DNA of 54,165 bases from Candidatus Desulfofervidus auxilii (lineage in GTDB: Bacteria; Desulfobacterota; Desulfofervidia; Desulfofervidales; Desulfofervidaceae), in contig NZ_CP013015.1 in assembly GCF_001577525.1 (NCBI RefSeq), forward strand, positions 272,173 to 326,337, in the 5' to 3' direction. Each line of letters starts with the position of its first letter. Positions within the stretch are counted from its first letter, which is position 1. The notes beneath the pieces are model-generated. The model saw nothing but the letters and a program-made list of their open reading frames with translations, did not search any database and was not told the DNA's origin. Both the position numbers and the translations under genes were made by a program. This document shows, in pieces, positions 9,890-25,425 of the stretch.

Positions 9890-11006
9890 AAAATCTATAT
9901 GTGAAAATGCGCATCGGATAGTAATAAAGGTAGGAAGCAGTGTAATCACCACTGCGGAAGGTCTTAATCTATCTATTATCGCTCAACTGGCTGCTCAAAT
10001 CGCCAGTTTGCGTCAAAAGGGTAAGGAGATTATCTTGGTTTCTTCTGGGGCTATTGCCGCAGGAAAGAGAAAAATGAAATTCAAACAAGGCCATTTTTCC
10101 CTTCCTCAATATCAGGCCCTGGCTGCTATTGGTCAGGGAGATTTAATCCAGTGTTATGAAAGGGCTTTTGCCGCTTATAACCAACCCATAGCTCAAGTGT
10201 TACTCACTAAAGATGGACTAACCCAGCGTTATCGTTACCTGAATGCTCGTCACACCTTTCTCGCTCTTTTGCGCTGGGGAGTAATACCCATTGTGAACGA
10301 AAATGATACTGTAGCGGTTGAGGAAATAAAATTTGGGGATAATGATTTTCTGGCAGGTTTGATCACAGCCATGTTGGAAACGGATCTGCTGATTTTCCTC
10401 ACAGACATAAATGGACTCTATGAACAAGACCCTAGAATTTATCCAAAAGCCAGGCGTTTGCCCATAGTGGAAAAAATTGATGCCTTCATAGAAGCTTTGG
10501 GTGCTAGTCCTCCAAACAAACTAGGAAGAGGTGGCATTGCTAGCAAAATTCAGGTAGCAAAAGAGATGACTGCCTTAGGCATTCCAGTAATCATGGCTAG
10601 GGGCAAAGACCCTGAAGTTTTATGTTCAATTTTTAAGGGTGAAGAGATAGGAACACTTTTTATTCCCCAGAAAGCACATCTGCGTGTGCGTAAACATTGG
10701 CTGGCTTCCTTACCTCCTAAAGGGAAAATAATCATTGATTCCGGTGCAGAAAAGGCATTACGCTATGGCGGAAAAAGCCTCTTACCTCCAGGGGTAAAGT
10801 CCATTGATGGAGAATTTTCTGCTGGTGACCCGGTATGTTGCACCAATGAGCAAGGAGAGAAAATAGCTATTGGTTTAGTAAATTACAGTAGTTGGGAAGT
10901 AGAAAAAATAAAAGGGCTTAAGACTAAAGAGATCGAAAAGGTATTAGGTCACAAAGGCTATGAAGAAGTAATCCATCGCGATAATTTGTGTATTCTGGAA
11001 AGATAA
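9858..11006 (+). CDS. proB: Glutamate 5-kinase with PUA domain
   Basis: A 382-residue cytoplasmic enzyme making gamma-glutamyl phosphate, the first step of proline synthesis. Residues 18-260 are the amino-acid kinase fold (IVIKVGSSVIT, SSGAIAAGKRKM, NENDTVAVEEIKFGDND, GRGGIASKIQVAK), and residues about 285-370 are the PUA domain (GKIIIDSGAEKALRYGGKSLLPPGV). The start ATG lies inside the end of obgE; this obgE-proB linkage is common in Desulfobacterota and relatives. The feedback-inhibition region in the kinase domain is intact. No proA is next to it; a hairpin after the stop suggests that the operon ends here. Confidence 0.95.
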   Translation: MKAEKNLTKLRKSICENAHRIVIKVGSSVITTAEGLNLSIIAQLAAQIASLRQKGKEIILVSSGAIAAGKRKMKFKQGHFSLPQYQALAAIGQGDLIQCYERAFAAYNQPIAQVLLTKDGLTQRYRYLNARHTFLALLRWGVIPIVNENDTVAVEEIKFGDNDFLAGLITAMLETDLLIFLTDINGLYEQDPRIYPKARRLPIVEKIDAFIEALGASPPNKLGRGGIASKIQVAKEMTALGIPVIMARGKDPEVLCSIFKGEEIGTLFIPQKAHLRVRKHWLASLPPKGKIIIDSGAEKALRYGGKSLLPPGVKSIDGEFSAGDPVCCTNEQGEKIAIGLVNYSSWEVEKIKGLKTKEIEKVLGHKGYEEVIHRDNLCILER

Positions 11007-11040
11007 AAGGCTGAACATTTCCCCATTTAAAACTACATCC

Positions 11041-11090
11041 AAAGGGGTGGTGGATAAATTATAGAGGGATTGTCTAGCAAACCACCCTTT
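11041..11090 (+). terminator. Possible terminator hairpin after proB
   Basis: AAAGGGGTGGT (11041-11051) can pair with ACCACCCTTT (11081-11090) with one bulged G and a 29-nt loop, followed by TTCC. It lies 35 bp past the proB stop. The long loop makes it a weak intrinsic terminator. Confidence 0.4.
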
Positions 11091-11174
11091 TCCAAACATG
11101 GCTAGACTTTGACGTTATAGCCAAAATATTCTATAAACACTTAAATAAAAATACAATCAAAGGAGAAAAATCCA

Positions 11175-23754: not shown

Positions 23755-23771
23755 TTTCTATTTCGTTGACA
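23755..23771 (+). repeat. 17-bp direct repeat, left copy (flanks the cassette array)
   Basis: TTTCTATTTCGTTGACA; the right copy at 25721-25737 differs only in one base (A for G). The copies enclose almost exactly the cassette array. TTGACA at the end of each may simply be a -35 box. Confidence 0.6.
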
Positions 23772-23784
23772 AATAGGGTAGATT

Positions 23785-23812
23785 TTGACATGGAAAAAAC
23801 ATGTAATATAAT
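23785..23812 (+). promoter_or_regulatory. Strong promoter (Pc-like) reading into the cassette array
   Basis: Perfect TTGACA (23785-23790) and perfect TATAAT (23807-23812) separated by 16 bp, directly upstream of the first cassette junction at GTTAGAT (23826-23832). Integrons drive their captured genes from such a Pc promoter; a second TTGACA lies at 23766-23771. Confidence 0.7.
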
Positions 23813-23825
23813 AAAATAAAGATAA

Positions 23826-23832
23826 GTTAGAT
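23826..23832 (+). other. Putative integron recombination junction (attI-like or decayed attC core)
   Basis: GTTAGAT fits the GTTRRRY core where integron integrases cut between G and TT. It lies at the left edge of cassette 1, 10 bp before the start codon of its gene, and the other junctions in this array have the same short distance to the next gene. The rest of an attI site cannot be recognised without its integrase. Confidence 0.5.
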
Positions 23833-23841
23833 GAATAAATC

Positions 23842-24555
23842 ATGAACAATATCGCAACAATAATAAAATATATTTCCGATGATTTTGAAACATTATGGGA
23901 CTTGATTGCACATAACCAAGAGCATATACCGAGAGGAAATTATCTTTTTGCCGTACAAAGCATGATTTTTTTAGAGGTAGTTTCTAGGGTATGCAATAAG
24001 ATAGACAAATTGCATGAACTATCCCTTGCTATAGAAGATAGATATTTTCAAAAACTCCCTTCATGTTTACGATACTCTTCTAAGGAAAAAGATGACTTTC
24101 TTTTGCCGTATAGAGATGAATCCAGTAAGCATCAATATCTGATTTATTGGCTGTTTAAGGCAGTCAGACATGGAACCGCTCATTATTACGATCAAATAAT
24201 CCTACAAGGTGTAGATTTTTATTTAGACATAGGGGTGACTGGCCCAAAAATTTCACATTGCTTAAGCTACATACATGAAAATAGACCAAAAGTTAAACAT
24301 CTTCAATTTCAAGAAATAGAAGATGAACAGAGTTTTTCTACTTTAGGATTAAAAACAGAGCATAAATTAATTCGATTATACTTTAATCCAGGTCTATTTT
24401 ATTTGGATATAAAAGCTGCCATTAAATCCATTCGTCTTGTTGATAATTATGGTAAGCAACCAATGGATGAGTTTGTATCTGAGTTATATAAAAAAGATAT
24501 GCAAATTAACTGCAAGTTAAAAACATTGGAAAAATGCGTAAAAATAGAGAAATAA
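23842..24555 (+). CDS. Cassette 1 gene: hypothetical protein, 237 residues
   Basis: I do not recognise this protein. It seems cytoplasmic and mainly helical, with an aromatic-rich middle (HQYLIYWLFKAVRHGTAHYYD), an RH..AHY pattern reminiscent of HEPN-like or other nucleic-acid/defence domains, but I cannot prove a family. It is the only gene of a typical integron cassette: the junction GTTAGAT lies 16 bp before the ATG, and an attC begins 3 bp after the stop. No ribosome site precedes the ATG, as is common in cassettes. A strong promoter reads into it. Its base composition is close to the surroundings. Confidence 0.8.
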   Translation: MNNIATIIKYISDDFETLWDLIAHNQEHIPRGNYLFAVQSMIFLEVVSRVCNKIDKLHELSLAIEDRYFQKLPSCLRYSSKEKDDFLLPYRDESSKHQYLIYWLFKAVRHGTAHYYDQIILQGVDFYLDIGVTGPKISHCLSYIHENRPKVKHLQFQEIEDEQSFSTLGLKTEHKLIRLYFNPGLFYLDIKAAIKSIRLVDNYGKQPMDEFVSELYKKDMQINCKLKTLEKCVKIEK

Positions 24556-24557
24556 AT

Positions 24558-24653
24558 CATAACAATTCGCTGCACCTGACCGCTATACCGCTGGCCTGCC
24601 GTCCACCAGTCAGGCAGGCGCTCCACAGCGGCAGGTGAGCTTAGACGTTATAC
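24558..24653 (+). repeat. attC recombination site of cassette 1
   Basis: The site opens with ATAACAA and closes with GTTATAC (24647-24653). Inside are the complementary arms CACCTGACCGC and GCGGCAGGTG, perfect but for one extra A in the left arm, which is the extrahelical base that fixes strand choice in attC sites. A second small hairpin (GCCTGCC...GGCAGGC) makes the variable terminal structure. It lies 2 bp after the stop of the gene before it and 18 bp before the next ATG. Confidence 0.88.
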
Positions 24654-24665
24654 GAAAATTGAAAA

Positions 24666-25139
24666 ATGAAAAAGAGATTTGAAATTGAGCAGATAGGAAT
24701 AATTCATAGCCCATATAAGACCAAGGAGGAATGCCCCATCCAAGGTTCACTTAAGCCAGAAGTAACAGGAAAGATTGAAATATATCCAGAATATGAAGAA
24801 GGATTAGAAACGATAGAAACTTTTTCCCATATCATGTTATTTTATATTTTTGATAGAGCAGGAGAAATAAAATTATCCAGATCAACTTTTCTAGATGATG
24901 CACCTCATGGTGTTTTCGCTTCCCGACACCCTTGTAGACCAAATTTCATCGGTATTTCTATTGTAAAACTAGAAAAAAGAAATGGTAATACATTAGAAGT
25001 AAGCGGAATAGATATTCTGGATAATACACCACTCATAGATATAAAGCCATATATCCCGAGATTTGACTATGTTAAAAATGCAAATAATGGATGGACAGAG
25101 GATAAAAAGATTCGTCAAAAGCCACCAGGCAGAGAATGA
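24666..25139 (+). CDS. trmO: Cassette 2 gene: TrmO/TsaA-type tRNA (t6A37) N6-methyltransferase
   Basis: A 157-residue protein of the UPF0066/TsaA family, which uses SAM to methylate N6-threonylcarbamoyladenosine 37 of certain tRNAs in the cytoplasm. The signatures are IGIIHSPYKTKEECPIQG, FSHIMLFYIFDRA, GVFASRHPCRPNFIGISIVKL and VSGIDILDNTPLIDIKPYIP; SAM-binding residues in RHPxRPN are all present. The C-terminal domain of the longer TrmO is lacking, as in many short forms. It occupies a whole cassette: ATG 18 bp after the preceding attC junction, its own attC starting 4 bp after the stop. TsaA-type genes are plausible cassette cargo, but the selective reason is unknown. Confidence 0.92.
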   Translation: MKKRFEIEQIGIIHSPYKTKEECPIQGSLKPEVTGKIEIYPEYEEGLETIETFSHIMLFYIFDRAGEIKLSRSTFLDDAPHGVFASRHPCRPNFIGISIVKLEKRNGNTLEVSGIDILDNTPLIDIKPYIPRFDYVKNANNGWTEDKKIRQKPPGRE

Positions 25140-25143
25140 AAAC

Positions 25144-25225
25144 GTATAACAAGCCAGTGCACTAGACCGCCAATCCACTGCGCTGCGCTTGCGGTCTTGT
25201 CGGCTGGTGACTTTAGCTGTTGGGT
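25144..25225 (+). repeat. attC recombination site of cassette 2
   Basis: It begins GTATAACAAG and ends with core GTTGGGT (25219-25225), an exact GTTRRRY. The inner arms GACCGC and GCGGTC pair perfectly and the CACTAGACCGC/GCGGTCTTGTCGG region gives an imperfect outer stem with unpaired bases. It starts 4 bp after the trmO stop. The layout (TTTAGC before GTT) is like the TTAGAC before GTT in the first site. Confidence 0.85.
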
Positions 25226-25425
25226 ATTTTAGAAGTTATGTTGGGGGACTTGCATACCGAATTATTGATACCGGTGCATCGGGTGGCATAATCGTATCGC
25301 CGTTACCACTGCAAGATGGAGCGAAAAAAGTAGCCAAAGCCAACCATATCGTCCACGTTCGGTTAGGACCATCAACCCCAGAGAACTTTGCCATCAGTTT
25401 TTTTCAACAAGGTCTTTGTTGGTAG
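25226..25425 (+). pseudogene. Decayed third cassette: C-terminal fragment of an endonuclease-like protein
   Basis: After the second attC junction the plus strand reads GGLAYRIIDTGASGGIIVSPLPLQDGAKKVAKANHIVHVRL and stops at 25425. This resembles the end of a Mrr-like restriction-endonuclease family (VDTGAxGGIIVSPxGLQxGAxKxA), with no start codon or N-terminal domain of its own: the frame upstream is the attC. It therefore looks like the truncated remains of a third cassette. The family assignment is by eye and uncertain. Confidence 0.45.

Follow-up and report, generated by a model that had tools for sequence, protein, structure and literature searches.

How does a gene for an enzyme of the tRNA-modifying type come to lie between recombination sites in the chromosome of Candidatus Desulfofervidus auxilii, and what could it do there? 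The window, that is, the whole stretch of 54,165 nucleotides that was analysed, corresponds to C1:272173-326337 of a single contig of 2,540,211 bases (2.54 Mb), to which all genome-wide E values refer. Its forward strand holds, at positions 24666-25139, an open reading frame of 157 amino acids that is assigned to the TrmO family of class VIII methyltransferases by PF01980, TIGR00104 and a structure match. The gene is flanked on both sides by attC sites in the same orientation as itself. The initial annotation had described it as being carried on a recombination cassette, and this description proves to be right: it is an integron cassette, with an attC on either side and an R'' box that pairs fully with the start of the cassette.

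The attC sites were recognized with a covariance model, R1, trained on nine attCs that come from the genome's main array and one further cluster, with the sites of the window left out. At E <= 1, this model has only two matches in the window, both on the forward strand. The first, at 24557-24653, is the attC of the preceding cassette (cassette 1) and scores 56.3 bits (E 6.1e-10 genome-wide). The second, at 25144-25225, is the attC of the trmO cassette itself; it is degenerate and scores 33.7 bits (E 2.7e-4 genome-wide). Measured from one G^TT point to the other, the trmO cassette is 572 bp long (24648-25219, forward strand). Its start, GTTATAC, is complementary at 7/7 positions to the R'' box of its own attC, GTATAAC, while twelve comparison attC pairs have 4 to 7 complementary positions (nine pairs from this genome and three from the contigs of L014 and L017, two relatives discussed below; hand-picked, weak intervening sites being skipped). 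As single-stranded DNA, the attC of cassette 1 folds better than shuffled sequences (z -3.24 and -3.64 for the two strands) and the trmO attC no better than these (z -0.23 and -1.37). A first-pass scan for attC sites by arm pairing was rejected: it detected sites within the arrays but missed the trmO attC and, with the cut-off unchanged, gave 30 and 38 chance matches in two shuffled windows.

Judged from its surroundings, the trmO cassette stands in the middle of a small group of three that has no integrase of its own, a CALIN. Cassette 1 starts at a left recombination core GTTAGAT (G^TT; 23826-23832, forward strand), as read from the sequence, and contains an open reading frame of 237 amino acids (23842-24555, forward strand; ORF call) that has no match in Pfam, NCBIfam or PADLOC. 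This frame finds a counterpart in two of 395 genomes of the phylum, its own and one other (57 residues, E 2.7e-4), and its single-sequence structure prediction has a mean pLDDT of 39.3, too poor to be interpreted. It includes a motif, RHGTAH, which by eye only we take to resemble the Rx4H of HEPN ribonucleases. Of the third cassette a remnant is left (25220-25422, forward strand), a copy of an Mrr-like gene from which an internal piece is deleted. Positions 25240-25422 of the window are 95% identical, over 186 columns, to a gene that follows a different attC, at 1.538 Mb (L142:1756-2265 = C1:1538255-1538764). This whole copy reaches 21.2 bits with the Mrr_cat model (cut-off 21), and it is its inner part that is missing from the copy in the window.

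Ahead of cassette 1 lies a candidate cassette promoter, TTGACA-16-TATAAT (23785-23812, forward strand), which matches the sigma-70 consensus at 12/12 positions and from which the cassettes might be transcribed. Promoter-like sites as such are no more frequent in this region than in shuffled sequences (7 vs 9.2), and it is the perfect match alone that stands out. The candidate promoter is part of a 70-bp segment (23761-23830) that is 89% identical to C1:587900-587969, where it precedes another cassette (588 kb). At both places the shared segment ends at a GTTAG core, exactly where the first cassette begins. A third, partial copy (44 bp, 86%; C1:2172451-2172494) is situated about 7 kb from the nearest attC, so that the segment cannot be counted as a proven component of the integron. 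Weak similarity to it (E 0.1-0.3) is also seen ahead of single cassettes at 2114 and 2537 kb.

The genome does contain an integron integrase. The integrase model has 15 matches, of which one, C1:2238312-2239256, lies above the cut-off (498.3 bits vs 265); it is a full-length match, to a gene encoded elsewhere in the same chromosome and of putative activity. A complete integron, with integrase and attI beside the array, was not found at the trmO cluster, the nearest full integrase match being the one at C1:2238312. The attC model has 37 matches in the whole genome at E <= 1, representing 36 distinct sites (one is an opposite-strand duplicate) at 12 places: 10 in the main array, 10 at 2249-2255 kb, five at 554-557 kb, the trmO pair, a pair at 1291-1292 kb and seven singles. 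With an attC pair here and the integrase gene elsewhere, the trmO cluster is a small CALIN with the integrase gene in trans. It shares with known CALINs the open reading frames in one direction separated by attC sites, the lack of an adjoining integrase and the presence of an integrase elsewhere in the genome. The integrase would then act in trans on the attC sites of the trmO cassette, which could be cut out or pasted in at another place.

Some of the other attC places merit a description of their own. The second large cluster, C1:2249353-2255382 (L012:7353-13382), has its 10 attC matches on one strand, about 10 kb beyond the integrase and apart from the main array. It is preceded by what are presumably ordinary genes, for example, a methionine-tRNA-ligase-like frame. 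One of its cassettes (L012:7974-8616, about C1:2249.97-2250.62 kb) encodes HepT and an MNT-type nucleotidyltransferase. In another cassette (L146:1128-1522, about C1:2537.6-2538.0 kb), HicA (27.9 bits, cut-off 27) is accompanied by a HicB-like protein that narrowly misses its own cut-off.

It might be argued that the trmO cassette is a fossil, which arrived by way of an integron long ago and is now fixed and immobile. The degenerate second attC, the decayed third cassette behind it and the lack of an adjacent integrase are all in agreement with such a history. On the other hand, the attC of cassette 1 still scores well, the complementary boxes of the trmO cassette are exact and the integrase frame is matched over its full length, and we consider immobility somewhat unlikely. 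A cassette that is still movable in trans remains our preferred reading.

What does the cassette encode? The 157-residue protein passes the cut-offs of PF01980 (132.8 bits, cut-off 26.8) and of the NCBIfam TrmO equivalog TIGR00104 (134.4 bits, cut-off 93.25). Its predicted structure (mean pLDDT 76.5) has ten matches among solved structures at E <= 0.001, every one a TrmO-family member, with Archaeoglobus fulgidus AF0241 (E 6.0e-13) and TrmO of P. aeruginosa at the top. AF0241 (PDB 2nv4) is the best solved match by sequence as well (135.8 bits). The AdoMet-binding residues of E. coli TrmO are Q25, R92, D125 and K136 (PMC4132733), and all four are kept in the cassette protein, as Q26, R87, D116 and K127. 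At the DNA level, dN versus the window gene is 0.10-0.19 in all 15 comparisons, and dS is 1.3-3.1 in eight of them and saturated, hence not computable, in the other seven. The low dN against dS indicates that the protein has been kept by selection.

The initial annotation had the enzyme act on t6A37. The part of this claim that concerns the enzyme type stands, since the TrmO fold and the AdoMet residues are present; the target itself is unproven. E. coli TrmO (YaeB), the tRNA m6t6A37 methyltransferase, resembles the cassette protein in its N-terminal domain, but it also requires a C-terminal DPRxxY, mutation of which abolished its activity (PMC4132733). Unlike this enzyme, the cassette protein has no C-terminal DPRxxY domain and belongs to a separate clade. 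With the AdoMet residues present but DPRxxY missing, methylation of t6A37 thus remains a good guess rather than a result. The motif is absent from the second PF01980 copy of the genome, too, and the C-terminal domain is said to be specific to gamma- and beta-proteobacteria and mammals. The target could, alternatively, be another RNA or a protein instead of t6A37 of tRNA-Thr. Besides the missing DPRxxY, the best solved match points in this direction, as it is the archaeal AF0241, and a target other than tRNA-Thr t6A37 has been suggested for the short archaeal homologs (PMC4132733). AF0241 shares with the cassette protein the length of a single domain; nothing ties it to a cassette, in contrast to the window gene, and its substrate is not established, as far as it is described in PMC4132733. 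Against another target speaks the score above the TrmO equivalog cut-off, and we hold this alternative to be a real one, though not the favoured one. The enzyme would most likely methylate t6A37 or a similar RNA target and thereby tune decoding, rather than serve in defence.

A second trmO in the chromosome had been proposed as the observation to make, and such a gene exists: one further PF01980 member is located at C1:2341780. A tree of 108 sequences and 155 columns places it together with genes from three same-family genomes (support 100/98), the pattern expected of vertical descent. (Rows that were short or cut off, namely L137, L083, L057, L077 and L100, were dropped from the tree, as were the second frame of L065 and repeat fetches of loci already in it, L120-L125, L127-L133 and L136.) The cassette gene falls elsewhere: its clade (100/99) comprises 16 sequences, whose bins belong to 12 named phyla, three of them archaeal. 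This clade is nested in one of 28 sequences (100/99) that also comprises Geobacteraceae, Myxococcota, Nitrospirota and Planctomycetota. The forks inside the 16-sequence clade are mostly weak, and the order of the transfers is therefore not readable.

A search of four genomes of the same family, one of them 81% complete, gave no gene of the cassette type; three have a single PF01980 gene, orthologous to the copy at C1:2341780, and one has none. An empty site from before the insertion was sought in the same four genomes as well, and no match to ahbC was seen within 1.5 kb of ligA. The initial annotation would have been contradicted by a sole copy of vertical descent. With a second PF01980 gene present and a cassette gene that is not vertical by the tree and is absent from the four same-family genomes, this is not the situation found.

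The relatives of the cassette gene are widely scattered. A scan of genome contigs yielded 77 loci, 14 of which are at 73-84% identity, the next one being at 64%. The archaeal labels among the 14 are Nanoarchaeota, Nanohalarchaeota and Aenigmatarchaeota; the bacterial ones are Clostridia, Falkowbacteria, Mycoplasmatota, Omnitrophota, Nitrospira, Lentisphaeria (two loci in one bin), Desulfococcaceae, Anaerolineae, Chlorobiaceae and one unplaced bacterium. Two loci assigned by label to different archaeal phyla, L014 and L018, are 93% identical in DNA (dN 0.035, dS 0.237). The host searches covered 13 genomes for the 14 loci, because L023 and L024 share one bin. In nine of these 13 (the completeness of the bins is not stated), the cassette type is the sole PF01980 gene found. 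For this reason, a second trmO does not by itself separate a counter-measure from a housekeeping gene on the move, contrary to what had been anticipated. Matches to attC (E <= 0.1) occur in at least five of the 13 host genomes, with 150 first-look candidates scored for G047, G049 and G050, and an integron integrase above the cut-off in two. The Chlorobiaceae bin has two full trmO genes of the cassette type 4.4 kb apart (L147:6209-6730 and 10578-11099), and a partial third one (L137) on another contig, directly behind what by eye is an apparent attC end.

Are these relatives also cassettes? By covariance models, an attC is found beside five of the 14 close relatives and, at E <= 0.01, beside none of the control loci. 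R1 has a match beside L020 (24.6 bits, E 0.0056) and L026 (27.6 bits, E 0.001), and none at E <= 1 in 19 control loci (L028-L046). A second model, built from four attCs of L014 and L017, recognizes sites outside its training set behind the gene of L014 (E 4.7e-12) and ahead of the gene in L017 (E 9.8e-5) and L021 (E 5.6e-4). In 29 control loci (L028-L056) it has no match at E <= 0.01, the value for L049 being E 0.33. When the training sites on the other side of the gene are counted, L014 and L017 are complete cassettes; accordingly, a trmO relative forms a complete cassette on a Nanoarchaeota contig with archaeal genes. An attC beside L015 is suggested by folding and complementarity rather than by either model. 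For the remaining eight of the 14, neither the models nor the support tests gave an accepted attC; these copies may not be cassettes, or their sites may have been lost or have escaped recognition.

Other procedures were tried and put aside as evidence. A strict 7-mer scan, considered as the main test, picked out L015 as the only one of the 14 close relatives. The window itself escaped it, since the pattern GTT[AG][AG] disallows GTTATAC; four control loci (L059, L066, L085 and L086) passed it at 6/7. In a fold-based test, 6 of the 28 flanks of the close relatives passed (no more than 2 of 40 shuffles as good), among them one of L016 that is probably false, as it apparently lies within the upstream coding region. 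Four of 58 flanks from 29 control loci passed as well (L032, L042, L052 and L065), and beyond its support for L015 this test was rejected. Arm scans of longer stretches gave a few sites in the contigs of L014 and L017 and no clear excess over shuffles elsewhere.

One could object that the wide distribution arises mainly from errors of binning or from chimeric metagenome contigs, and that the cassette is in fact confined to a few bacteria. The hosts of the close relatives are indeed mostly metagenome bins, several of them CSMAG-labelled. The contigs themselves speak against it. That of L014 encodes an archaeal-type GluRS (glutamate-tRNA ligase; 527.3 bits vs 127.8 for the bacterial model), that of L021 contains RLI (728.4 bits) and that of L017 contains FtsW and MurG, both above their cut-offs. 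From these markers it follows that, chimeric assembly aside, contigs of both domains hold the gene. Furthermore, the protein sequences differ by up to 27% and are thus not copies of one contaminant. Such an artefact appears improbable, and we favour a lineage that crossed phyla as well as the archaeal-bacterial boundary, partly at least in cassette form.

Finally, there is the matter of purpose. It had been suggested that modification genes on mobile DNA could be counter-measures against phages or tRNA-cutting toxins; the cassette enzyme would modify the anticodon loop and so block cutting by such toxins or by defence nucleases. Integron cassettes often carry toxin-antitoxin and restriction genes according to PMC9668308, and the attC places of this genome hold the HepT/MNT, HicA/HicB-like and Mrr-like genes described above. 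These circumstances would favour the proposal, but the results of the searches run counter to it. PADLOC gave no match at E <= 0.01 for trmO, cassette 1 or the third remnant; its PDC-S09 models do recognize the MNT gene, which lies in a different cluster. In IMG/VR, a search for close relatives did not confirm any contig with one, and the matching phage (10) and plasmid (187) records are all below 60% identity. No toxin was identified beside trmO, and nothing links it to the toxin-antitoxin or restriction genes at the other attC places. An enzyme that is the only PF01980 gene found in most of the host genomes fits poorly with this role, too. A counter-measure is therefore very improbable, and a decoding-related housekeeping gene on the move is the likelier reading.

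Taken together, we propose, with a probability of roughly 0.8, that a TrmO-type methyltransferase cassette resides in a three-cassette CALIN, is movable by an integrase encoded in trans and belongs to a lineage that has spread across phyla and over the archaeal-bacterial divide. At the level of sequence, this proposal draws on the cassette borders, the integrase in the genome, the separate second gene, the cross-phylum clade, the attC sites beside other copies and the low dN versus dS. Integron cassettes and CALINs are already known, and so is their exchange across the two domains; what is unusual is the TrmO-type cargo and its reach. As described in PMC9668308, archaeal cassettes reside mostly in CALINs and are exchanged with bacteria. 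The present case is similar in having cassettes on archaeal contigs and an exchange with bacteria, and differs in that a single protein lineage is followed across both domains. Its cargo also departs from the toxin-antitoxin, restriction and acetyltransferase genes that are common in the cassettes of PMC9668308, and the words tRNA, methyltransferase and TrmO do not occur in the main text of that article. A TrmO-type integron cassette was not found in the literature outside the supplementary cassette tables, which may hold PF01980 members. Most likely, then, the enzyme is a class VIII methyltransferase of the ordinary sort, and it is the cassette that has travelled unusually far.

It is tempting to go a step further, although only tentatively, and to see in this tRNA-modifying enzyme a recurrent cross-domain integron cargo. 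Bacteria, among them CPR bacteria, and DPANN archaea would trade a plug-in that tunes decoding or shields the anticodon, sometimes in several copies and often as the only family gene of the host. Toxin-antitoxin pairs, restriction enzymes and proteins of unknown function are what many integron cassettes code for. If true, a conserved enzyme connected with translation and travelling as a cassette from phylum to phylum and across domains would be a recognizable marker of cross-domain cassette exchange, and with it one could test directly why cells should trade a tRNA modification.
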